Source of the DNA: a virus
Length of the DNA: 21,514 nt
Virus record (IMG/VR): IMGVR_UViG_3300028802_000063
Coordinates: 1 to 21,514 of that record
Direction: 5' to 3' (one strand)
Under the pieces are notes generated by a model. It was not told the DNA's origin. It ran no database searches and saw only the letters and a list, made by a program, of their open reading frames with translations. Below, piece by piece: positions 1,110 to 18,010 of the stretch (its first letter is position 1; each line of letters opens with the position of its first letter). Both the position numbers and the translations under genes were made by a program.

Positions 1110-3229
1110 CCGCGCCCGACGCGTCAGCTGCCGCCGTCTGCATGTTGCAGGCGGCGCTCGACTACGCGGAACAAGGCCTGCGCGTCTTTCCGGTATGGCA
1201 TGTCGACGCGGATCGCTGCGTTTGTCCCGCCGGCGGCGAATGCCCAGATCCAGGCAAGCACCCGCACGTGTCGCGGTGGCAGGTGGCCGCGACCGATGAC
1301 ACTGACACGCTGCGCGAGTGGTGGGCTCAATGGCCCCGCGCCAACATCGGCTTGATCACGGGCGCCACGAACGGCTTCGTGGTCGCAGACTTCGATCCGC
1401 GCAACGGCGGCGATCAAACACTCGCGCAGCTCGAGGCGGCGAACGGCGGGACGTTTCAGACTGTCACGGCGCTGTCCGGCGGCGGTGGGGTGCACCTGTT
1501 TTTCGCCGTGGGGGCGGACAGTCGTTTACGTAACGGCCGCGGGATACGGCCCGGACTCGACCGTAGGGGTAACGGCGGCTACGTCGTGTCGGCGCCGTCC
1601 ATGCACGCGAGCGGGCACCGTTACGTGTTCGCGGCGGGGCTTGGGCTTGGCGCTCCACTGCTGCCCGTGCCGGATTGGCTCGATGAACGCGCGATCGATC
1701 GCGGTGAGCCGGATGTCGTGCCCGTGGTGCTGCCGGTCGGACCGCGTGATCTCGCGCGCATCGATCGGTACGCGCGGCGCGCGCTCGATCTCGAGTCGAA
1801 CGCCGTGCGCACTGCGCCCAAGGGCACGCGTAACGATCGACTGAATGAAGCCGCTTTCTGTCTTGGTCAGCTCGTAGGCAGTCGAGCGCTTGATCAAGGC
1901 CTCGTTGAAAGTGTGTTGTTCGGAGCGGCCAAAGCGGCGGGGCTTGGCGTTCGCGAGATTCAAAAGACGATCCGCAGCGGACTCGAGACGGGGATCAAAC
2001 GTCCGCGCGCAGTGCCCGAGCGCACAGCGAATACACGCGCAGTGCCGGGGGCCAACATGGCGCATGACTCAGACCCACCTACGCCCGGCGCCGTGCTCGC
2101 AGCGCCCGCGCAGCAAGTCCCGGCGTATCGCTTGCTCGCCGATGGCATCGAGCACGAAATGCGGTCGCTTGGGCCGCGCGTCGCTACGGGCTTTCGCTCG
2201 CTCGACAAGTGGACGGGCGGCGGCATCCCATGCGGAACGCTGGTCGTGCTGCTCGCCCCGCCGAACGTCGGCAAGTCGTCGCTCGCAGCCTATCTCGCGC
2301 ACGCAATGGAAGCTGATAGCGGCTGCGCTTGCGTCTACTTCGCGGCCGATGAGGCCGCGCGGGGCATCTATTTGCGCATCGGTCAAATGATGGGATTCGA
2401 GCGCGAAGACTTGGAAGCTGACGGCGATTTCGGCGCGGCGCGGCGTGCCGCGTATGCGGAACGCGCGCGCGATCCATCTCGGAAGCTCGCGATCATCAAT
2501 CCCTATGTCGACGGTGCATCGACGGTCGAGGCGGCCCACGCCGCGCTGCTAGACTTCGCCGCGGACCGACCGCGGGTGATGTTCGTGGACAGCCTGCAGT
2601 CCGCGAGTTTCGACGTGGACGCGGGCGTCGATATCGTCAGGGAGCGCATCGACGCGCGGCTCAAGCAGTGCGTGGGTATCGCGCGCACGGGAACGAGTGT
2701 CGTGCTGATCAGCGAAATGCCGCGTGCTGCGTACGCCAATCGTACGGGCAGCGCCGATCGCGATCCCATCGCGGGCGGCAAAGAATCGGGCGGCATCGAG
2801 TTCCGCGCAGACTTGCAACTGACACTCAAGCCCGTGCAGGGGCAGCGGGGATTCGTCGATCTGAGTGTCGACAAAAACCGCATCACGCCGATCAAGCACG
2901 TGTCGCTGCGGCTGCGGCAAGACTTTTGTTCGGCTGCGTTTTCGGAAGTCATGCTGCCGCACGCGTCCACGCCCACCAAAGACGAACGCGACGCGGCGGC
3001 CGATGCGCAGCGGGACGCGCGGCAGTTCGCCAAGCTTGTCGACGCAGAGCGCAAGGTATTGGACGCGGTAAGAGCGGTCGCCGCGCTGCGCACGATGGGC
3101 GATGTCGTAGCGGCCACCAGTGCTCGCAAGCAGGACGTTCACCGCGCGATCCGGGCGCTCGAATTGCGCGGAGAGCTAACCAAAGCAGGCGGGGTCTACG
3201 CCGTCGCCGGGAGCGCCGCCCATGCGTGA
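1106..3229 (+). CDS. Primase-polymerase fused to RepA/DnaB-like ATPase (replication protein)
   Basis: This 707-residue protein probably primes and drives phage DNA replication. The N-terminal third is a primase-polymerase (archaeo-eukaryotic primase type): cysteine/histidine-rich C-P-A-G-G-E-C near residues 32-42, metal-binding D-F-D at 95-97 and S-G-G-G-G-V-H with H130. The middle holds a RepA/AAA_25-like or RecA-fold ATPase: Walker A A-P-P-N-V-G-K-S-S with K390, then R-V-M-F-V-D-S with Walker B aspartate 495. The last ~60 residues (V-L-D-A-V-R-A-V-A-A-L-R-T onward) look like a winged helix that could bind the repeats just downstream. It starts with GTG in a GTGA overlap with the upstream gene. 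The assignment of domains is firm; helicase activity is inferred from the ATPase and its context. Confidence 0.88.
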   Translation: MTAPDASAAAVCMLQAALDYAEQGLRVFPVWHVDADRCVCPAGGECPDPGKHPHVSRWQVAATDDTDTLREWWAQWPRANIGLITGATNGFVVADFDPRNGGDQTLAQLEAANGGTFQTVTALSGGGGVHLFFAVGADSRLRNGRGIRPGLDRRGNGGYVVSAPSMHASGHRYVFAAGLGLGAPLLPVPDWLDERAIDRGEPDVVPVVLPVGPRDLARIDRYARRALDLESNAVRTAPKGTRNDRLNEAAFCLGQLVGSRALDQGLVESVLFGAAKAAGLGVREIQKTIRSGLETGIKRPRAVPERTANTRAVPGANMAHDSDPPTPGAVLAAPAQQVPAYRLLADGIEHEMRSLGPRVATGFRSLDKWTGGGIPCGTLVVLLAPPNVGKSSLAAYLAHAMEADSGCACVYFAADEAARGIYLRIGQMMGFEREDLEADGDFGAARRAAYAERARDPSRKLAIINPYVDGASTVEAAHAALLDFAADRPRVMFVDSLQSASFDVDAGVDIVRERIDARLKQCVGIARTGTSVVLISEMPRAAYANRTGSADRDPIAGGKESGGIEFRADLQLTLKPVQGQRGFVDLSVDKNRITPIKHVSLRLRQDFCSAAFSEVMLPHASTPTKDERDAAADAQRDARQFAKLVDAERKVLDAVRAVAALRTMGDVVAATSARKQDVHRAIRALELRGELTKAGGVYAVAGSAAHA

Positions 3230-3268
3230 AGTGATCGGGGTCGAAAAACCTGTAACCCCTCTAGAGGC

Positions 3269-3515
3269 GGTTCCCGCGATCACGCGAGTTCCGCCTCGGT
3301 TCCCGTCCAATTCGGCGTCACCAGTTAGGATGATTGGTTCCGGGTTCCCGCGGTTCCCGGTCGGTTCCCGGCGGTTCCCGCGGTCGGTTCCCGTTTTGCG
3401 TGCGATGCAAAGCGGCGTGGTTCCCGTGGTTCCCGCACCCCTTAAGGGGGCGGGACCATCGGGAACCGCGCTGCGAATCGCACTGCCGTTTGGTGTAAGC
3501 GGGCGAGCGGGAACC
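3269..3515. repeat. GGTTCCCG iteron-like cluster with palindrome (candidate replication origin)
   Basis: Nine exact GGTTCCCG boxes begin at 3269, 3298, 3343, 3352, 3363, 3373, 3386, 3419 and 3428, and two inverted copies CGGGAACC begin at 3460 and 3508. A near copy GGTTCCGG is at 3336. The five central boxes are 9 to 13 bases apart, close to one helical turn. Between the direct and inverted copies sits the 12-base palindrome CCCCTTAAGGGG at 3438-3449, extended by CCCG and CGGG arms. Known plasmid and phage origins use such iterons bound by their Rep protein; the cluster lies 40 bases behind the replication gene. An origin function is inference. No convincing gene covers 3230-3651; the open frame across it encodes the repeat as a Phe-Pro/Val-Pro string. 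Confidence 0.68.
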
Positions 3516-3560
3516 AAGGGTCCGCTAGCCATCGGGGACTATTCCGCGGCTGCCCGGCTT

Positions 3561-3600
3561 GGCAAGCGTGCTCATGGGCTCATGGGCTCATGGACAAGCG
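3561..3600. repeat. Octamer-period repeat array A
   Basis: Five consecutive 8-base words occur in strict phase: GGCAAGCG, TGCTCATG, GGCTCATG, GGCTCATG, GACAAGCG. Less regular words may continue to about 3616. It belongs to the dispersed octamer family also found at 4571, 11992, 12352, 13837 and 17899. It sits about 50 bases ahead of the zinc-ribbon gene and just behind the iteron cluster. Confidence 0.7.
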
Positions 3601-3651
3601 GTTCTGCAGCCATCCGCTGCGGGCGCGACTGTCACACCGGAGAGGATCTAT

Positions 3652-3885
3652 ATGCCTGATGCACCGGACTGCCGGCGCTGCAATCGCGCTGACACGCGTT
3701 ACTACCGGCATACGTTCGACGGTGGTTTTCACGTCGGTTTATGGTGCTTGAGCTGCCACGCACACGCGCAGACCGGGCGCGCTTGGTACGCGAAAGGCGA
3801 TTTCACCGCCGAGGAACTCAAGGCGCTGCCCGATCTGGCTCGGGTCGAGGGCACGGCAGATCCACGACAGACCCGCCTCTTTTAG
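3652..3885 (+). CDS. Small zinc-ribbon protein
   Basis: The 77-residue protein has two knuckles, C7-R-R-C10 and C32-L-S-C35, 21 residues apart, as in zinc ribbons. The rest includes G-R-A-W-Y-A-K-G-D-F and a short acidic helix. Function is unknown; small zinc-ribbon proteins near phage replication and modification genes commonly bind nucleic acid or act as adaptors. I chose the ATG at 3652 because GGAGAGG lies about ten bases upstream and because an earlier TTG at 3559 would translate the octamer array. Its stop lies two bases before the start of the RuvC-methyltransferase gene, so both are probably translated from one message. Confidence 0.62.
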   Translation: MPDAPDCRRCNRADTRYYRHTFDGGFHVGLWCLSCHAHAQTGRAWYAKGDFTAEELKALPDLARVEGTADPRQTRLF

Positions 3886-3887
3886 TT

Positions 3888-5327
3888 ATGCGAATGAACG
3901 ATAAGCAACCAAGTCGAAGCAAGGCCCCTAGGCGCCGTCGTGCGGCTAGCGCCGTCGTCACACGTGGGTCAGGGCGGAAGCGCCGTCGCGAGCCGACACG
4001 CGCACAGCTCGTGCAGCGGCGGGGCTATGCGGCGCGACCGTGGCGCTGCGCCGTGCTCGCCGTGGACACCGCGGGGCGGTCTGGCTGGTCATTCCGCGTG
4101 GCAGGCGTTCAGTCTGCTTTCGGGGAAGTCGAAACCAAGGACGGTGAGTCCGTTGCCCACATTGTGCGGTGGGCGGAGCAAGAATCTCACAGCCTCGATT
4201 TGGTGCTCGTGCTCGAGGCCCCCTACGGCGGCGGACGCGAAATGCTGCTCGCGCTCGGGGCCGCGCGCGAGCGCTGGCTTGCCGCGTGGCGGCAGGTTGG
4301 CTTATCAGAAAAGCGCGTAGTGCCGATCATGCCGTCGCGCTGGCGGCGCTTCGTGCTTGGGCCTGCGTATGTGCGCATGCAGCGCGACGACATACGCGCT
4401 GCAGAGCAGGAGCTCGCCGCGCGGATCGTCGGTGAAAAGTGCGCGGCGGATGAGTCGGCGGCGATTTTGATCGGGCTGTGGGCTGAACGCGCGCCGGAAG
4501 TCGGCGAGGCTTTAGGCACAAATGCGCGGCAAATCGGGGCCGGCGACGACTCGAGCGGGGCCGCCCGTGCTGCCAATGACGTCGCTTGCACGGATGCCAG
4601 TGTGCAAGCCGACACGCTTGCAAGCGTGCCAGTGAGCACGGGTGCAAGCGTGCTCATGAGCAGCCCCGTACGGCAGCTCGAGGCCGTATATGCCAAGGCC
4701 GCCGCGGACAAGCGCGCGGAGTGGTCTCAGTGGTATACGCCGCCGTGGCTCGCTGCGGCCCTGTGGGAGTGGGCGTCGCGCGGCGATCGGCCCGTGCGCA
4801 GCGTGATCGAGCCGTCGTCGGGGGAAGGTGCGCTGATCTTGCCGATACTCGCGGATCCGCGCGGCTGCATGGCGATCACGTGCGTTGATATCGACCAAGA
4901 CAACGTGCGCAAGCTCGCCAAAGTGTGCCGTGATCGGCAGGTGCCGGCGGGGCTCGTGATCACTGCGCATCACGGCGATTTTATGTGTGGCAAGTCGACC
5001 AATGCCGGGGCGCTATTCGACCTGTGCTTGATGAATCCACCCTATGAAAACGGGCAAGCGGAAGACTTCATTTTACACGCGCTCACGATGGCACGGCGCG
5101 TGTGCGGGATATTCAAAGCGTCGATCCTGCACGGTCAGGGTAGGTACGACACGCTATGGCAGCACGCGCAGACGACGCGCGAAGTACGGCTGAAAAAGCG
5201 GCCATCTTTTGGCAAGTCGAGCCGGGGTACGACGTCGCCGAAAAACGATTACGTCGCACTCGAGATCGTGCTGCGCACGGCTGACGCACCTAGCGAGCGC
5301 ATGGTCGAGGTTGAGTCGTGGGGTTAG
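3888..5327 (+). CDS. RuvC-like nuclease fused to N6-adenine DNA methyltransferase
   Basis: The 479-residue protein has two enzymes in one chain. After a very basic ~50-residue head, residues 54-200 look like a RuvC/RNase H-fold Holliday-junction nuclease: V-L-A-V-D60-T-A-G-R-S-G-W, then V-L-V-L-E110-A-P-Y-G-G-G, then C-A-A-D188-E-S-A-A-I-L-I-G, giving a plausible D-E-D metal site. Residues ~265-479 form an adenine methyltransferase: W-Y-T-P-P near 282-286, SAM-binding E308-P-S-S-G-E-G and catalytic N383-P-P-Y. Residues 228-260 are the linker and are encoded by an octamer repeat array. In the phage it could resolve recombination or packaging intermediates and methylate DNA against host restriction; both roles are inferred. 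ATG at 3888 or 3894 is possible; an upstream extension would only overlap the zinc-ribbon gene. Confidence 0.78.
   Translation: MRMNDKQPSRSKAPRRRRAASAVVTRGSGRKRRREPTRAQLVQRRGYAARPWRCAVLAVDTAGRSGWSFRVAGVQSAFGEVETKDGESVAHIVRWAEQESHSLDLVLVLEAPYGGGREMLLALGAARERWLAAWRQVGLSEKRVVPIMPSRWRRFVLGPAYVRMQRDDIRAAEQELAARIVGEKCAADESAAILIGLWAERAPEVGEALGTNARQIGAGDDSSGAARAANDVACTDASVQADTLASVPVSTGASVLMSSPVRQLEAVYAKAAADKRAEWSQWYTPPWLAAALWEWASRGDRPVRSVIEPSSGEGALILPILADPRGCMAITCVDIDQDNVRKLAKVCRDRQVPAGLVITAHHGDFMCGKSTNAGALFDLCLMNPPYENGQAEDFILHALTMARRVCGIFKASILHGQGRYDTLWQHAQTTREVRLKKRPSFGKSSRGTTSPKNDYVALEIVLRTADAPSERMVEVESWG
4571..4666. repeat. Octamer-period repeat array B, inside the coding region
   Basis: Twelve consecutive 8-base words occur in strict phase, among them TGCCAATG, TGCACGGA, TGCCAGTG (twice), TGCAAGCG (twice), AGCACGGG and TGCTCATG. 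The same words make up the intergenic arrays. Here they lie wholly inside the open frame, exactly between the RuvC-like and methyltransferase domains. Twelve octamers make 96 bases, a multiple of three, so the frame is kept. The encoded linker is rich in A, S, T and V. Confidence 0.8.
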
Positions 5328-5686: not shown

Positions 5687-6892
5687 ATGGTTGACGCCGC
5701 CGCCGAATGGGTCGACCCCGCCACGCTCAAGCCCTGGGCAAAAAACCCGCGGAAAAACGACGGCGAACCGGTGGTCAAAGTCGCCGAGTCGATCAAGCGC
5801 TTCGGCTTCGCATCGCCGATCGTCGCTCGCCTCGAGACGCGCGAGATCATCGCGGGGCACACCAGGTGGAAGGCCGCGCAGTCGCTCAAGCTCGACCGCG
5901 TGCCGGTGCGTTTCGTCGACTTGTCGGAGCGCGAAGCGCACCTTCTAGCGCTCGCCGATAACCGTCTAGGCGAGCTCGCCGAATGGGATACGCCCGAGCT
6001 GCACGACCTGCTGCGGTCTTACGACCTTGGCGATCAAATGCTCGCCGGTTGGGGCGACAAGGATCTGCGCGAGATGGAACGGCTCATCAGGTCGAATGGC
6101 GACCTAGCCGACGACGACGCGCCGGCACCGCCCGAGACTCCGATCACGCAGCCGGGCGATCTGTGGCTGCTCGGGCGGCATCGGCTCGTGTGCGGGGATG
6201 CGACGGATCCCAAGGTGGTGCAGCTCGCGCGGGCGAAGCTCGAGCCGTTTTTGATGGTGACGGATCCGCCGTATGGCGTGGCGTACGACGCGAAATGGCG
6301 CAAGGGCCCCGTGGGCAATGGGGATCCGTCCAGTCTAGGGAAGGTCGAAAACGACGATCGGGGATCTTGGCCTGCGGCTTACAAGCTGTTTACGGGTGTA
6401 GTCGCGTACGTGTGGCACGACGCTAAAAGCGTTGCGACCGTTGCGGGTGATCTACTCGCGGCGTCAATGCGGATTCGGTCTCAGATAATATGGAAGAAAA
6501 ACGGGCTAATAGTGGGCCGTGGCCACTACCACTGGCAGCACGAGCCGTGCTTCTACGCCGTGCGTGAGGGCCACTCCGCGCGCTGGTCCGGCGACCGTAC
6601 GCAGTCGACCGTATGGGATATCAGTAACCGCCCCACCGACCCCACCGACGAAACCACGCACAGCGCGCAAAAGCCGATCGAATGCATGGCCCGCCCGATC
6701 CGCAACCACGGCAAGGCCGGCGACGTCGTCTACGATCCTTTCTGCGGCTCGGGCACGACGCTGATCGCCGCCGAGCAGCTCGATCGCACATGCGTCGCGA
6801 TCGAGATCTCGCCGGCGTACTGCGACGTAATCGTTGAGAGATGGCAGAAAGTCACGGGACACAAGGCGCAGCGACAAACGGCGACGCCATGA
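5687..6892 (+). CDS. ParB-like domain fused to beta-class DNA methyltransferase
   Basis: The 401-residue protein begins with a ParB/Srx-type domain at about 5-100 (L-K-P-W-A-K-N-P-R-K-N, S-I-K-R-F-G-F-A-S-P-I-V, I-I-A-G-H58-T-R-W-K-A-A). It then has the typical hinge W-L-L-G-R-H-R-L-V-C-G-D-A-T. The methyltransferase has its catalytic motif first, D193-P-P-Y, and the SAM-binding motif later, D350-P-F-C-G-S-G-T-T, the order seen in N6-adenine/N4-cytosine enzymes such as CcrM and M.HinfI relatives. Phages often carry this ParB-methyltransferase pairing without a cognate restriction enzyme. It probably modifies phage DNA to evade host restriction; target base and site cannot be told. The ATG at 5687 lies 39 bases past the upstream stop with only a weak G-rich ribosome site. 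Confidence 0.88.
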   Translation: MVDAAAEWVDPATLKPWAKNPRKNDGEPVVKVAESIKRFGFASPIVARLETREIIAGHTRWKAAQSLKLDRVPVRFVDLSEREAHLLALADNRLGELAEWDTPELHDLLRSYDLGDQMLAGWGDKDLREMERLIRSNGDLADDDAPAPPETPITQPGDLWLLGRHRLVCGDATDPKVVQLARAKLEPFLMVTDPPYGVAYDAKWRKGPVGNGDPSSLGKVENDDRGSWPAAYKLFTGVVAYVWHDAKSVATVAGDLLAASMRIRSQIIWKKNGLIVGRGHYHWQHEPCFYAVREGHSARWSGDRTQSTVWDISNRPTDPTDETTHSAQKPIECMARPIRNHGKAGDVVYDPFCGSGTTLIAAEQLDRTCVAIEISPAYCDVIVERWQKVTGHKAQRQTATP

Positions 6893-7410
6893 CGACGACA
6901 CCGGAAACGCTACACCGCTATTTTGCCGCACTTCTGCGGGCCGCAGGTCAGCAAGACGCTGTTGTGTGGCGCAGTCAAAACGCCGTCGTGTGGGCGCTGG
7001 ACAAGCCGTGGTGTCGATCGCTGTGCTTTCACTGGTATTCTTACGAAAGCAAAACGATGCGGGCGCAGGTCGAGCGAAGCAGTCTGCGCTGGCCGCGGAC
7101 GAACCAGCTAGCTTGCCCATACGCGGATGCGCATCAGTTCGAGTTCACCTTCCACGTGGACGAATCACCGATCGCGCTGCAGTGGCTGTGTGACCTGTGT
7201 CTGCGGCGCGACACGCCACTGCTCGAGGCGCACCACGTCGAGTGCCTCAAGCACATACGGGCCGGCTCGCACTATGAGTGGACTGACCGCGCGTGGACGG
7301 CCTGCGAAGCGGTCTACGTGGCCCGAGCTCGGGCGCGCGGTGAGGTGCGTGTTGCGCGGCCGAATCGACCGCGCGACCGGGTTTACAGGCACAAGCTGGG
7401 CGAAGGCTAG
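6889..7410 (+). CDS. Hypothetical protein
   Basis: A 173-residue protein of unknown function. It contains several Cys/His/Trp positions (P-W-C-R-S-L-C-F-H-W-Y, L-C-D-L-C-L-R-R-D, H-H-V-E-C-L-K-H) that could bind a metal, including a C-x2-C near the middle, and a basic C-terminus. I chose ATG at 6889, which forms an ATGA overlap with the methyltransferase stop; an in-frame ATG at 6841 would overlap it by 52 bases. It sits between the modification genes and the small terminase. Confidence 0.55.
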   Translation: MTTTPETLHRYFAALLRAAGQQDAVVWRSQNAVVWALDKPWCRSLCFHWYSYESKTMRAQVERSSLRWPRTNQLACPYADAHQFEFTFHVDESPIALQWLCDLCLRRDTPLLEAHHVECLKHIRAGSHYEWTDRAWTACEAVYVARARARGEVRVARPNRPRDRVYRHKLGEG

Positions 7411-8638: not shown

Positions 8639-8748
8639 GGCAGGGCCGCGCGTGGCGAGGCCGGGCCAGGCGGGGCAAGGCATGGTGGGGCGGGGCAAGG
8701 CATGGGTCTGTTGGTCGATCGGACACTGAAACTAGTCGACCAGTTTTC
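8639..8748. repeat. Pentamer/hairpin module 1
   Basis: Fourteen 5-base words run in phase from 8639 to 8708, mostly GGCNN, ending GGCAA, GGCAT, GGGTC. They lead into a hairpin with arms TGGTCGAT (8712-8719) and GTCGACCA (8735-8742). The 15-base loop ends in GACACTGAAACTA and a short T-tract follows. Modules 2 and 3 repeat the design. No convincing gene lies in 8633-9084. Confidence 0.8.
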
Positions 8749-8751
8749 CAC

Positions 8752-8873
8752 GGCTTGGCGAGGCGAGGCTGGGCATGGCCTCGGCCGGGCGGGGCGAGGC
8801 GCGGCGGGGCGAGGCAACGCATGGGTCCGTTAGTCGACATGACACTGAAACTAGTCGACTGTTTGTTTTTTTT
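8752..8873. repeat. Pentamer/hairpin module 2
   Basis: Pentamers of the GGCNN type run from 8752 to 8827 with one extra base at 8782, ending GGCAA, CGCAT, GGGTC. The hairpin has arms AGTCGAC (8832-8838) and GTCGACT (8854-8860) around the conserved loop. Relative to module 1 the pair G-C has become A-T, a compensatory change. A long T-tract follows. Confidence 0.8.
8831..8873 (+). terminator. Terminator-like hairpin with T-tract (module 2)
   Basis: A 7-base stem (AGTCGAC with GTCGACT, plus one possible T-G wobble) is followed directly by GTTTGTTTTTTTT. The layout is that of a rightward rho-independent terminator, though the 15-base loop is long and the stem short and only moderately GC-rich. 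It would separate the modification/small-terminase genes from the late genes. Weak as a terminator call on its own. Confidence 0.35.
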
Positions 8874-8998
8874 GGCCCGGTCAGGCTAGGCGCGGCAAGC
8901 CATGTCCAGGCATGGCGGGGCGCGGCAGGACGCGGCCGGGCTAGGCAACACATGGGTCCGTTAGTCGACATGACACTGAAACTAGTCGACTGTTTTTC
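8874..8998. repeat. Pentamer/hairpin module 3
   Basis: Seventeen 5-base words in unbroken phase run from 8874 to 8958, mostly GGCNN, ending GGCAA, CACAT, GGGTC. The hairpin arms are AGTCGAC (8963-8969) and GTCGACT (8985-8991), with the same loop as module 2 and then TGTTTTT. From CATGGGTC at 8951 to the second arm it is identical to module 2. Confidence 0.8.
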
Positions 8999-11991: not shown

Positions 11992-12047
11992 CACCAGCGT
12001 GCACACGTGCAAGCGTGCCAGTGTGCAAACGGAACCATGAGCAAAGG
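11992..12047. repeat. Octamer-period repeat array C
   Basis: Seven words in strict 8-base phase begin on the base after a stop codon: among them TGCACACG, TGCAAGCG, TGCCAGTG, TGCAAACG. The array runs up to the ribosome site of the next gene; its last word AGCAAAGG contains the AAAGG of that site. Confidence 0.75.
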
Positions 12048-12351: not shown

Positions 12352-12407
12352 CGCTCATGATACCGTGTGCCCATGGGCAAGCTTGCAAGTGAGGCCATGA
12401 GCACATG
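12352..12407. repeat. Octamer-period repeat array D
   Basis: Seven words in strict 8-base phase: CGCTCATG, ATACCGTG, TGCCCATG, GGCAAGCT, TGCAAGTG, AGGCCATG and AGCACATG. Weaker words may extend back to about 12320. The ATG ending the last word is the start codon of the portal gene. Confidence 0.75.
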
Positions 12408-13838
12408 AGCGGCGACGGCGCGACGGTCGAGCGGCTAGACGGCTGGATGAACGTGGTCACGGGCCTCGGGACGGCCCGCGATAAGCTGACCTATGCGAAG
12501 GTGTCGCCCGGCGAAAAGCTCGGTGATGGGTCGCTCGAAACGCTTTTCAATGAGGATGACACCGCGCGGCGTATCGTGTCGAAGCTGCCCCGCGAAGCGA
12601 TGCGGCGCGGCTTTGAAGTCGAACTCGAGGCCGACGACGGCGACGACAGCGGGGCCGATGTCGAGCGCGAGCTGCAGGACGCGCTACGCAAGCTAGGGGC
12701 CGACGCTGCGCTACGTGATGGCTGGACATGGGCGCGGCTATACGGCGGCGGCTCGGGCCTATTCGTTGGCGCCGACGACGGTCGCGAGCCACACGAGCCG
12801 CTGAACGAGTCTGCGATCCGCTCGATACGTTTCGTCAACGTGATCAAGCGGCCGCAGCTGGTGGTCAAGTCGCGGAAGGTCGACGTCACACAGCCCGACT
12901 ACGGCAAGCCCGAGCTCGTGACGATCTATCAGACTGGCATGATCAGCGGCGTGCAGCGGCTGGGCGTGAGCGTCGATGTGCACATAAGCCGCTTGATCTT
13001 GTTCGACGGCGTGCTCACCGCTCGCACCACGCAGCCCAGCACGAACGAATGGGATGATTCGGTATTGCAGTCGGTGTATTCGGCGCTGCAGCAGTCCGCT
13101 ACGGGCTGGCAGTCGACCGCGCACCTGATGACAGATGCCGCGCAAGGCGTGCTCAAGATTCAGAACCTGATCGACTTGATCGCCGCAGGCCGATCCGAAG
13201 TGCTGACGGCACGCATGCAGGCCATGGACATTGCGCGCTCGGTTGCGCGCGCAATCGTCGTGGACGCTGAGAAAGAATCTTTCGAGCGGATCGCTACGTC
13301 ATTCGCGGGGCTGCCCGAAGTGTTGGACAAGCTCATGACGCGTGTCGCATCGGCGGCTGAAATGCCGGTCACGCTGCTTTATGGCAGGTCGCCGGCAGGC
13401 ATGAACGCGACCGGCGAAAGCGATATACGCGGCTGGTACGACACCGTAGCGGACGCGCAGACAGACATCCTCGAGCCGCGGCTGATGCGGCTGCTTACGC
13501 TGATGTTTCTCGCCAAAGACGGCCCGACGCGCGGCGTAGTGCCCAAGCGCTGGTGCATCGAGTTCAAGCCGCTATGGCAGCCCACGGATAAGGAACTCGC
13601 AGACACGCGCAAGGTCAAAGCAGACACCTATGTAGCGCTGGTCGGGGCGCAGATCGTCACCGAGTCGGAAGCGGCGATCGGCCTAGCGCCCGACTTCCCC
13701 GTGATCGACGTCGAGCAGCGCCGGCAGCTGCAGGAGGATCAAGCGGATGTCCACGCCGAGGCGCTGCTGAACCCGCCGCGGCCGCCCGATCCGAACGCAG
13801 ATCCGGAAGCCGATCCCACGGAACCAGCCCCCGGTTGA
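12405..13838 (+). CDS. Phage portal protein (DUF1073 family)
   Basis: The 477-residue protein is a portal: the ring through which DNA enters the capsid and to which the tail attaches. Recognisable DUF1073 features are T-A-R-R-I-V-S-K-L-P-R-E-A-M-R-R-G-F near residues 50-67, W-T-W-A-R-L-Y-G-G-G-S-G-L-F, the F-V-N-V-I-K-R-P segment and, at about 325-345, E-M-P-V-T-L-L-Y-G-R-S-P-A-G-M-N-A-T-G-E. The C-terminus is acidic and Pro-rich. The same Pfam entry (PF06381) is also named for an N-terminal domain linked to the anti-CBASS protein Acb1; no Acb1 enzyme domain is visible here. Its ATG is formed by the last octamer of array D and its stop starts array E. Confidence 0.85.
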   Translation: MSGDGATVERLDGWMNVVTGLGTARDKLTYAKVSPGEKLGDGSLETLFNEDDTARRIVSKLPREAMRRGFEVELEADDGDDSGADVERELQDALRKLGADAALRDGWTWARLYGGGSGLFVGADDGREPHEPLNESAIRSIRFVNVIKRPQLVVKSRKVDVTQPDYGKPELVTIYQTGMISGVQRLGVSVDVHISRLILFDGVLTARTTQPSTNEWDDSVLQSVYSALQQSATGWQSTAHLMTDAAQGVLKIQNLIDLIAAGRSEVLTARMQAMDIARSVARAIVVDAEKESFERIATSFAGLPEVLDKLMTRVASAAEMPVTLLYGRSPAGMNATGESDIRGWYDTVADAQTDILEPRLMRLLTLMFLAKDGPTRGVVPKRWCIEFKPLWQPTDKELADTRKVKADTYVALVGAQIVTESEAAIGLAPDFPVIDVEQRRQLQEDQADVHAEALLNPPRPPDPNADPEADPTEPAPG

Positions 13839-13932
13839 CGCGCTTGCACGGCGGCACCCGTGCTCATGAGCACGGGCACACATGTGCACATGAGCACGGA
13901 TGCACGGCGGCACATTGACTGCCGTGCATGTG
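13837..13932. repeat. Octamer-period repeat array E with 20-base palindrome
   Basis: Twelve words in strict 8-base phase, starting inside the portal stop codon: TGCACGGC twice, GGCACCCG, TGCTCATG, AGCACGGG, CACACATG, TGCACATG, AGCACGGA and others. It contains the perfect 20-base palindrome CCCGTGCTCATGAGCACGGG at 13857-13876 and a 16-base run of alternating pyrimidine-purine at 13877-13892. Confidence 0.8.
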
Positions 13933-16056: not shown

Positions 16057-17900
16057 TCAGCGCGCTACGCACGCAAGCCGCAGCTCGAGGTGCGCGGTAC
16101 GCGCGCGACGTCGCGCGACGCAAGTCACCGAGGCCGCGCTACCCGCACAAGGAAGTGCTGATCTATCACCGCCGGATCCGCTATCTCGTGCATCAAGCGC
16201 AGTACGTGATCGAGCGTGACCTGCTGCCGCAGCTGCCGACACTGCTCGATGAGCAGTCGCAGGTGTCAGCCGTCGTCATCCGTCGCGACTCGGCGGACGA
16301 TATCGACCGCGCGATCGCAAAGACGGCAGCGGCGACCGTGCAGACAGTGCCCGATCGCGAGATCGAAGCGGCGGCGACGCAAACGGCCTTGCGTGTGTCG
16401 GAGTGGCACGCCGACGAGTTCGGCAAGCAGATCGAAAAAGTCGCGCGCATCAACCTTCACGACAATACGACCGGTCTAGCGGGTGCGATCGACTTGTTCG
16501 TCTCGGATAACGTGGCGCTGATCAAGTCGATCAACGCGCAGCAGCTCGAGGCCGTGAAAGGCGTGATCCTGCGCGGCGCGCGCGCGGGCAAGTCGCACCT
16601 CGAGGTGCGGGACGAAATCGTCGCGCAGTTCGGCAAATCGAACAAGCGCGCGGCGCTAATCACCACGGATCAGATCGGCAAATTGAACGGGCAGCTAACG
16701 CAGCTGCGACAAACCAATATCGGGATCCGTCGCTACCGATGGTCGACGGCACAGGATGAGCGTGTGAGGCCTGCGGAAGGTGCCAACAAAGAAAGGCTCG
16801 GGCACCGCAAGCTGAACGGCACGATTCAGGAGTGGACGAAACCTCCGCTGACCGATGAACGCACCGGCGAGCGTGCGCATCCGGGCTATCCGATCCGCTG
16901 CCGGTGCGTGGCGATCCCGATCGTCGACGATCTGCTAGTCGAGGCCGGCTTGCTCGCGCCCGAAGACGTCGAGCTGCAGCAGCCCACACCGGGGCGTGTC
17001 GTCACCGTGCCGGGCGCACCGCCGCCCGCGAACACGCAACGCCCGCCGCCGGCACCGCTGCCGCCCACGCCGCCGCCGCCGGCACCGCCGCCGGTCACAC
17101 GGCCCCGATCGCCTACAGCCCCGCCCATATCCGGGGTGCTGCCCACGCCGAGCGTGTCAGATCGCGAGCTCGAGGCCGCAGCGTTCGCCCGGCTGCAGCA
17201 GCAGGCGTCCGAAGCGCTGCAGCGCAAAGCGGCCGCCGAAGTCACCCGCAAGCGGGCCGAGAAAGCGCTAGCCGCCGCGCTGGCCAGCTCGGAACGTGCC
17301 GCCGCAGCCACGGCGCAAGCGGAGCTCGAGGCCGCGCAAGTCGCAGAAACGGCAGCTGCCGGGGCGTACGCACGAGCCGTGCAGGAGGCCGCGGCCCCGA
17401 TCGTGCGGGTGCCGCCTGCGGTGGGGGCTGCGCCGCCCGCGCCCATGCGTAAACCCAAGGGCACGCCAGCACCAGGCCGCAAGCGCCCGCCCGTGCCGCT
17501 CGAGCCGCCCCGCAAGCCGGCGATGGCCAAGCCGCGCAAGGGTGTTGGCCCGCGCATACCGGCTGCCGACCGCGCGCTACTCGCGCCGATCGAGGCCGGC
17601 TTGGCGGACGCGCAGCTGTCGTATTTGCGTGAAGGCATGCGCGACTTGACCGCCATCAGCAGCGCATACGCCGGGGCTACGGCGGCGGAAGTCGATCTGA
17701 TCGCCACTGGGCAAAGTCGGACGAAAACGGGGCAGGCCTTCGAGCCGATCCGTATATCAGCCGAGCCTGGTTACCTAGAGCTCACAGACGGTCGGCACCG
17801 CATGGCAGCGGCTCGGGCAGCCGGGGCGACGCGGATCCTTGCTCGAATCAAGACGCCGGGCGGGGCCGAATACCTGCGGGTGATTCCGATTCCGCGCTAG
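16044..17900 (+). CDS. MuF/SPP1 gp7-like head morphogenesis protein with C-terminal ParB-like domain
   Basis: The 618-residue protein starts with a helical minor-head region and, at about 200-300, the MuF core: R-Y-R-W-S-T-A-Q-D-E-R-V-R, then H-P-G-Y-P-I-R-C286-R-C288-V-A. Such proteins attach to the portal and enter the virion. From ~315 come a Pro-rich linker and an Ala/Glu-rich helix (about 375-455). The last ~100 residues end in Y-L-E-L-T-D582-G-R-H-R-M-A-A-A-R-A-A-G-A-T-R-I, the ParB/Srx motif also seen in nuclease-like and Srx-fold domains. MuF proteins of temperate phages are known to carry variable C-terminal toxin domains; a ParB-like tail is therefore a candidate effector. GTG start at 16044; alternatives were not better. 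No catalytic activity is shown. Confidence 0.82.
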   Translation: MDALISALRTQAAARGARYARDVARRKSPRPRYPHKEVLIYHRRIRYLVHQAQYVIERDLLPQLPTLLDEQSQVSAVVIRRDSADDIDRAIAKTAAATVQTVPDREIEAAATQTALRVSEWHADEFGKQIEKVARINLHDNTTGLAGAIDLFVSDNVALIKSINAQQLEAVKGVILRGARAGKSHLEVRDEIVAQFGKSNKRAALITTDQIGKLNGQLTQLRQTNIGIRRYRWSTAQDERVRPAEGANKERLGHRKLNGTIQEWTKPPLTDERTGERAHPGYPIRCRCVAIPIVDDLLVEAGLLAPEDVELQQPTPGRVVTVPGAPPPANTQRPPPAPLPPTPPPPAPPPVTRPRSPTAPPISGVLPTPSVSDRELEAAAFARLQQQASEALQRKAAAEVTRKRAEKALAAALASSERAAAATAQAELEAAQVAETAAAGAYARAVQEAAAPIVRVPPAVGAAPPAPMRKPKGTPAPGRKRPPVPLEPPRKPAMAKPRKGVGPRIPAADRALLAPIEAGLADAQLSYLREGMRDLTAISSAYAGATAAEVDLIATGQSRTKTGQAFEPIRISAEPGYLELTDGRHRMAAARAAGATRILARIKTPGGAEYLRVIPIPR

Positions 17901-18010
17901 CACGTTTGCACATTTGCTCATGAGCACATGAGCAAGCGTGCACGCCAGTACGCCGATACGTGAGCACCCGTGCAAGCGTATCAATGGGCAAGCGTGCCAA
18001 TGTGCTCTTG
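17899..18010. repeat. Octamer-period repeat array F
   Basis: Fourteen words in strict 8-base phase, starting inside the MuF stop codon: TGCTCATG, AGCACATG, AGCAAGCG, TGCAAGCG, GGCAAGCG, TGCCAATG, TGCTCTTG and others. The first part contains a hairpin with arms GCTCATG and CATGAGC around AGCA. It is the longest array of the family and fills most of the gap before the protease/scaffold gene; 18011-18042 shows no clear ribosome site. Confidence 0.8.

Follow-up and report, generated by a model that had tools for sequence, protein, structure and literature searches.

In the window (the whole 21,514-base stretch of DNA analysed here) a gene for a 707-residue protein is followed by an array of short repeats in both orientations, which contains a large stem-loop; the coordinates are collected in Table 1. 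The protein combines a Prim-Pol domain (residues 17-191, PF09250, E 7.9e-39) with a RecA-fold ATPase resembling DnaB_C, KaiC and AAA_25 (residues 359-607; Pfam values of 2.8e-8 for DnaB_C and 9.2e-7 for KaiC, and a weak match to AAA_25), and its PHROG matches are DNA primase and DnaB-like helicase. The initial annotation had described the C-terminus as similar to a winged helix, and modeling agrees with this description: in an AlphaFold2 model built on a 13-sequence alignment (the last 78 residues and 12 C-termini of other initiators) residues 630-707 adopt the helix-helix-helix-wing order (H-H-H-beta-beta) with a mean pLDDT of 85. The Foldseek matches of this model in the PDB include winged helices of the IclR and Z-alpha types, all with E > 0.001, and the MarR_2 matches to the domain are weak. 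A structure of the full 707-residue protein predicted from the single sequence was discarded (pLDDT 36). The motif G-R-R/K-x-x-V opens the recognition helix in many of these initiator C-termini; since not all array-bearing proteins have it (one, L365, has boxes without the motif), we regard it as a lead that is suggestive only.

Table 1. Features of the putative origin region, and blocks of palindromic words, in the 21,514-base window.
Feature	Position	Strand	Remarks
Proposed initiator, 707 aa	1106..3229	+	Prim-Pol + RecA-fold ATPase + C-terminal winged helix
C-terminal winged-helix domain, proposed box reader	2993..3226	+	residues 630-707, AlphaFold2 model
Box 1, GGTTCCCG	3269..3276	+	exact match; core identical in L009
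Box 2, GGTTCCCG	3298..3305	+	exact match; core identical in L009
Box 3, GGTTCCCG	3343..3350	+	exact match; core identical in L009
Box 4, GGTTCCCG	3352..3359	+	exact match; core identical in L009
Box 5, GGTTCCCG	3363..3370	+	exact match; core identical in L009
Box 6, GGTTCCCG	3373..3380	+	exact match; core identical in L009
Box 7, GGTTCCCG	3386..3393	+	exact match; core identical in L009
Box 8, GGTTCCCG	3419..3426	+	exact match; core identical in L009
Box 9, GGTTCCCG	3428..3435	+	exact match; core identical in L009
Box 10, inverted GGTTCCCG	3460..3467	-	exact match; core identical in L009
Box 11, inverted GGTTCCCG	3508..3515	-	exact match; core identical in L009
Palindrome CCCCTTAAGGGG, pyrimidine-rich CTWWAG-centred hairpin core	3438..3449	.	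conserved in L009
Large dyad/stem-loop (boxes 8-9, palindrome, inverted box 10)	3412..3474	.	inverted repeat 29 nt, 79%
Palindromic-word blocks	3561-3592, 4580-4677, 12001-12042, 12369-12410, 13839-13922, 17885-18010		

The octamer GGTTCCCG occurs nine times on the plus and twice on the minus strand within positions 3269-3515 (247 bp), which confirms the counts given earlier, and the rest of the 21,514-base record has no further copy. Sequences simulated 30 times with a Markov-2 model have at most 3 to 6 copies of any 8-mer per 250 bp (the maximum of 6 belonged to CGCGCGCG); the 11 copies of GGTTCCCG are beyond chance. The first box lies 40 bp past the stop codon of the 707-codon gene, at 3229, and the array directly follows a primase-polymerase/ATPase gene, as stated in the initial annotation. 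The gaps between direct boxes are 29, 45, 9, 11, 10, 13, 33 and 9. The spacing of about one helical turn that had been noted earlier holds for five of these eight gaps, but it is not constant: close copies are irregularly spaced at 9-13 bp, which is shorter than the 19-22 bp of classical iterons. Since the repeats of many iteron origins, but not of all, are spaced regularly at about two helical turns (19-22 bp), we take such regularity to be variable and not a defining feature. A search of Rfam gave no match.

The direction of the boxes flips across the palindrome CCCCTTAAGGGG, which confirms the earlier observation of an orientation switch at this point. The palindrome caps a stem far larger than itself, with inverted boxes on either side; as single-stranded DNA this dyad has a folding energy of −31.8 kcal/mol, against −15.3 ± 2.5 in shuffles (z −6.5). 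Its TTAA core is a minority form, the commonest being TAAA/TTTA. No AT-rich stretch that could serve as a melting element is evident near the array: the lowest GC content over 40 bp is 50%, and 973 of the 21,475 segments of this size in the record are at or below this value. Other repeats are found elsewhere in the window. Three direct repeats of 82 nt (82-90% to the reference copy, with spacings of 119 and 131, ending in GTCGACATGACACTGAAACTAGTCGAC) occupy a non-coding stretch at positions 8664-8995, which precedes gene 9085 and lies about 1 kb short of the gene for the large terminase, and are possibly a packaging or regulatory site. The short palindromic words GCAAGCGTGC, GCTCATGAGC and GCACGTGC form dispersed blocks, mostly intergenic.

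A protein search of viral contigs returned one close relative of the 707-residue initiator (92% identity), on a 37.6-kb record designated L009, while a search of genome contigs with the same protein returned no relative. The array of L009 aligns with that of the window with zero indels. All 11 GTTCCCG boxes of the window are identical in L009: 0 of the 77 box bases are changed, against 30 of the 178 other bases in 3267-3521 (hypergeometric p = 9e-6), and as far as the window and L009 are compared the boxes are under purifying selection relative to the spacers. L009 has one box more than the window, and all of its 12 GTTCCCG copies in 37.6 kb are inside its array; an even spread of the boxes is therefore refuted in both records. 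The base ahead of GTTCCCG varies in L009, with C in several boxes. Because the leading G of the octamer is not conserved there, the conserved core is GTTCCCG, and GGTTCCCG, earlier taken as the repeat unit, is exact in the window but as a conserved unit must be shortened to this core.

We also scanned viral contigs for three GTTCCCG in a short span, and divided the matches listed into coding repeats locked to a reading frame and arrays that are not. Among these matches, a gene scoring over the cut-off for AAA_25 is present in 14 of 32 frame-unlocked records, versus 1 of 17 locked controls. In several of them (L130, L039, L097, L081, L090/L043, L054) the array begins 2-7 bp past the stop codon of the AAA_25 gene, and in two (L080, L113) it lies inside the last 250 bp of this gene; these AAA_25 proteins are about 20% identical. 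The apparent preference for G as the base after GTTCCC is biased, because this base was set by the search pattern. A pattern of mixed orientation identifies at least 119 loci in viral contigs, and at least 55 of these carry five boxes or more per 250 bp. For the reversed motif, as a control, the entire collection contains 65 loci, and 8 of these have at least five copies. Among the matches listed, the 39 ORFs beside mixed-orientation GTTCCC arrays include 11 with AAA_25, 9 with DUF927 and 4 with Prim-Pol; replication families account for none of 39 ORFs neighbouring clusters of the reversed motif. Similarly, AAA_25 scores over the cut-off in 20 of 50 array records versus 6 of 50 control records, and the AAA_25 genes of the latter have no GTTCCC arrays. 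In a related group of records (L318, L321, L337, L345, L347, L358) a GTTCCC array stands 4-13 bp past a gene of about 570 aa; this group is probably included in the DUF927 matches. Overall, the same box array is found in unrelated phages just 3' of replication genes with a winged-helix (wHTH) tail. The pattern scan of genome contigs was noisy, with many arrays away from replication genes. An array of the GTTCCC type is absent from the prim-pol phages vir555, H40/1, Vibrio 1.005 and prophiGD05-1; the array is therefore not universal among prim-pol phages.

Two Rhizobium phages can serve as examples. RHph_Y3_1 (MN988490) resembles the window in that a primase/helicase gene is directly followed, within 190 bp, by nine GTTCCC boxes pointing in both directions, with a CCCTTCTAAAGAAGGG hairpin between inverted boxes; it differs in that the protein is of the AAA_25 type, with little sequence similarity, and the box is followed by A and not by G. 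In phage 16-3 (DQ500118) an array with boxes of either orientation and a CACTCCTTTAGGAGTG hairpin likewise follow the Prim-Pol/ATPase gene p101, but here the box is CGTGACA. Within 900 bp this word has 15 copies, again of both orientations. The array and its hairpin, right after p101 (L259, 6109-6470), are a likely origin that uses a different iteron word.

The boxes could alternatively be operators through which an HTH_3 protein (191-664), or an autorepressing initiator, controls downstream genes. An Xre-type HTH gene does lie upstream of the array, and iteron arrays often double as operators. However, the array stands after the rep gene and comprises 11 boxes and a large stem-loop; a promoter scan of the region gave one weak promoter-like site, on the opposite strand; and the arrays found elsewhere follow replication genes of different families, with no shared regulator. 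We consider control of transcription improbable as the explanation of the boxes. A parS-like partition centromere is very improbable: clusters of short repeats can serve as parS sites, and the protein encoded at 5687-6892, which would be the one to use it, has a ParB_N domain, but this domain is fused to an N6/N4 DNA methyltransferase (phrog_498), the gene is 2.2 kb from the array, and the other arrays track replication genes 2-200 bp upstream.

The hairpin recurs as well. Of 48 independent arrays, 10 contain a perfect palindrome that has CTWWAG at its centre and extends it by three or more pairs, versus 0.22 expected from flanking DNA, while any other palindrome centre occurs in at most 2 of the 48. 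Since the CTWWAG centre had been chosen after some arrays had been inspected, an independent test was made. Inverted GTTCCC around YYCTTTAGRR is found at 71 loci (32 distinct), versus 9 for a CATTTG core, and AAA_25 is recognized in 16 of the 27 ORFs adjoining CTTTAG dyads. When the 14-mer CCCTCTAAAGAGGG is searched for by itself, an AAA_25-like ORF ends near it at 28 of the 90 distinct loci listed, versus 0 of 147 random positions drawn within the same loci (p = 8e-14, an optimistic value because some of the 28 loci are mutually related). The iterons around the CCCTCTAAAGAGGG loci differ, and include GGTTCA, GTGACA, CAGACA, CGCGCC and others. In the arrays the CTWWAG hairpin is mostly bracketed by oppositely oriented boxes, and a T-run after it is usually absent. 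These features bear on the possibility that only the hairpin has a function, that of terminating transcription of the rep operon, with the boxes as an unrelated binding site: a strong stem-loop just past the rep gene would suit a terminator, and the analogous hairpin of phage 16-3 has TTTT after it, but the systematic bracketing by inverted boxes does not fit. With no T-run after the window hairpin, and T-runs exceptional among related hairpins, this reading was rejected as highly unlikely. Finally, an ORF of 145 aa (3222-3659) spans the array, overlaps the rep stop codon and is open without indels in both the window and L009, so that the repeats could be codons of a low-complexity protein. 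The ORF has no family match in Pfam or PHROG, its differences between window and L009 are even over the codon positions (18/16/16, versus 29/16/131 in the rep gene), and the boxes occupy all three of its frames on both strands: the constraint therefore acts on DNA, and, judging from this pair of sequences, the array region is not evolving as coding DNA. Lacking a third-position bias while the box bases stay unchanged, the ORF was rejected as a coding sequence, and we give this explanation almost no credence.

These results lead us to interpret positions 3230-3520 as very probably an iteron-type origin of phage replication, for which the neighbouring gene encodes the primase-helicase initiator. 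The proposal of an iteron origin with its initiator encoded beside it, made in the initial annotation, is supported by the conservation of the boxes, the modeled winged helix, the recurrence of the arrays and the likeness to plasmid pWTY27 described below. Cumulative GC skew, which had been suggested as a check, was calculated for the 37.6-kb record of L009; there is no switch at the array, and the skew is uninformative. The skew, the short irregular spacing, the GC content beside the array and the prim-pol phages in which no such array was found are the points that fit the origin reading less well. As for the mechanism, the C-terminal winged helix of the 707-residue protein would bind the GTTCCCG boxes, and the crowded, opposed boxes would assemble the initiator around the 3412-3474 dyad, with the CCCCTTAAGGGG core extruded or melted; the RecA-fold ATPase would next encircle or unwind the strands, and the Prim-Pol domain would prime at the dyad, possibly on a single-stranded hairpin. 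The hairpin itself may be a priming site, a cruciform for assembly, or have some other role.

On balance we favor, if only modestly, a broader interpretation, according to which the locus represents a widespread and undescribed class of tailed-phage origins. In this class a pyrimidine-rich CTWWAG hairpin (typically CCCTCTAAAGAGGG), bracketed by inverted iterons, would stand just 3' of a gene for a wHTH-tailed initiator of the AAA_25, Prim-Pol or DUF927 type; the hairpin would be the constant site of loading or priming, while the iteron word would depend on the initiator, with GTTCCC as a frequent case. If this is true, sequence alone suffices to locate the origin in many uncultivated phages that have Prim-Pol or AAA_25 replication genes, and the locus is a definite place at which to ask two questions: how primase-helicase initiators are loaded, and where the first primer is made.

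These results can be compared with what is known of other origins. Origins of the iteron kind are already known; what looks new is that the GTTCCC word and the CTWWAG hairpin are common to divergent phage initiators. In P4 alpha a single protein primes, unwinds, and binds the short ori/crr repeats by a C-terminal winged helix (PMC4234260). The initiator proposed here would likewise unite priming, helicase activity and winged-helix reading of repeats, but P4 alpha has a TOPRIM-type primase and an SF3 helicase, its repeat sequence is another, and the parts are not homologous. In pRN1 the origin, which is experimentally supported, is a stem-loop directly 3' of the PrimPol-SF3-wHTH gene (ORF904), a system that its authors compare with P4 alpha (PMC4234260). 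ORF904 and the protein of the window share the combination of Prim-Pol, ATPase and C-terminal winged helix in one chain, and both genes have a large stem-loop on their 3' side; unlike the window, with its DnaB_C/KaiC/AAA_25 ATPase, pRN1 has an SF3 helicase, and no iterons are reported for it.

The box itself is shared with pWTY27, a theta plasmid of Streptomyces. In the openly accessible literature this was the only case of GTTCCC/GGGAAC iterons that a search found, and neither a GTTCCC array in phages nor the CTWWAG hairpin was described there. Its origin region of 300 bp contains five GTGGGAAC and five TTCCCAC repeats; RepA binds the array, as determined by EMSA and DNase I footprinting, the cloned region is a proven origin, and RepB is a predicted primase/polymerase in the minimal locus (PMC3583192). 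Array-bearing Streptomyces plasmids with a prim-pol gene also include pFP11 (L395, GCGTCCC x9 at about 8277) and a plasmid of S. rubiginosohelvolus (L402, GTTCCCA x6 at 6938). As in the window, a long inverted repeat is surrounded by boxes of both orientations (GTTCCCAC in pWTY27), and a prim-pol is part of the locus. The two systems differ in the base after GTTCCC, and in that the pWTY27 array precedes repA, its RepA and Prim-Pol are separate proteins, and it belongs to a plasmid and not to a tailed phage. If our interpretation is true, the box footprinted in one Streptomyces plasmid extends to phage initiators of several families.
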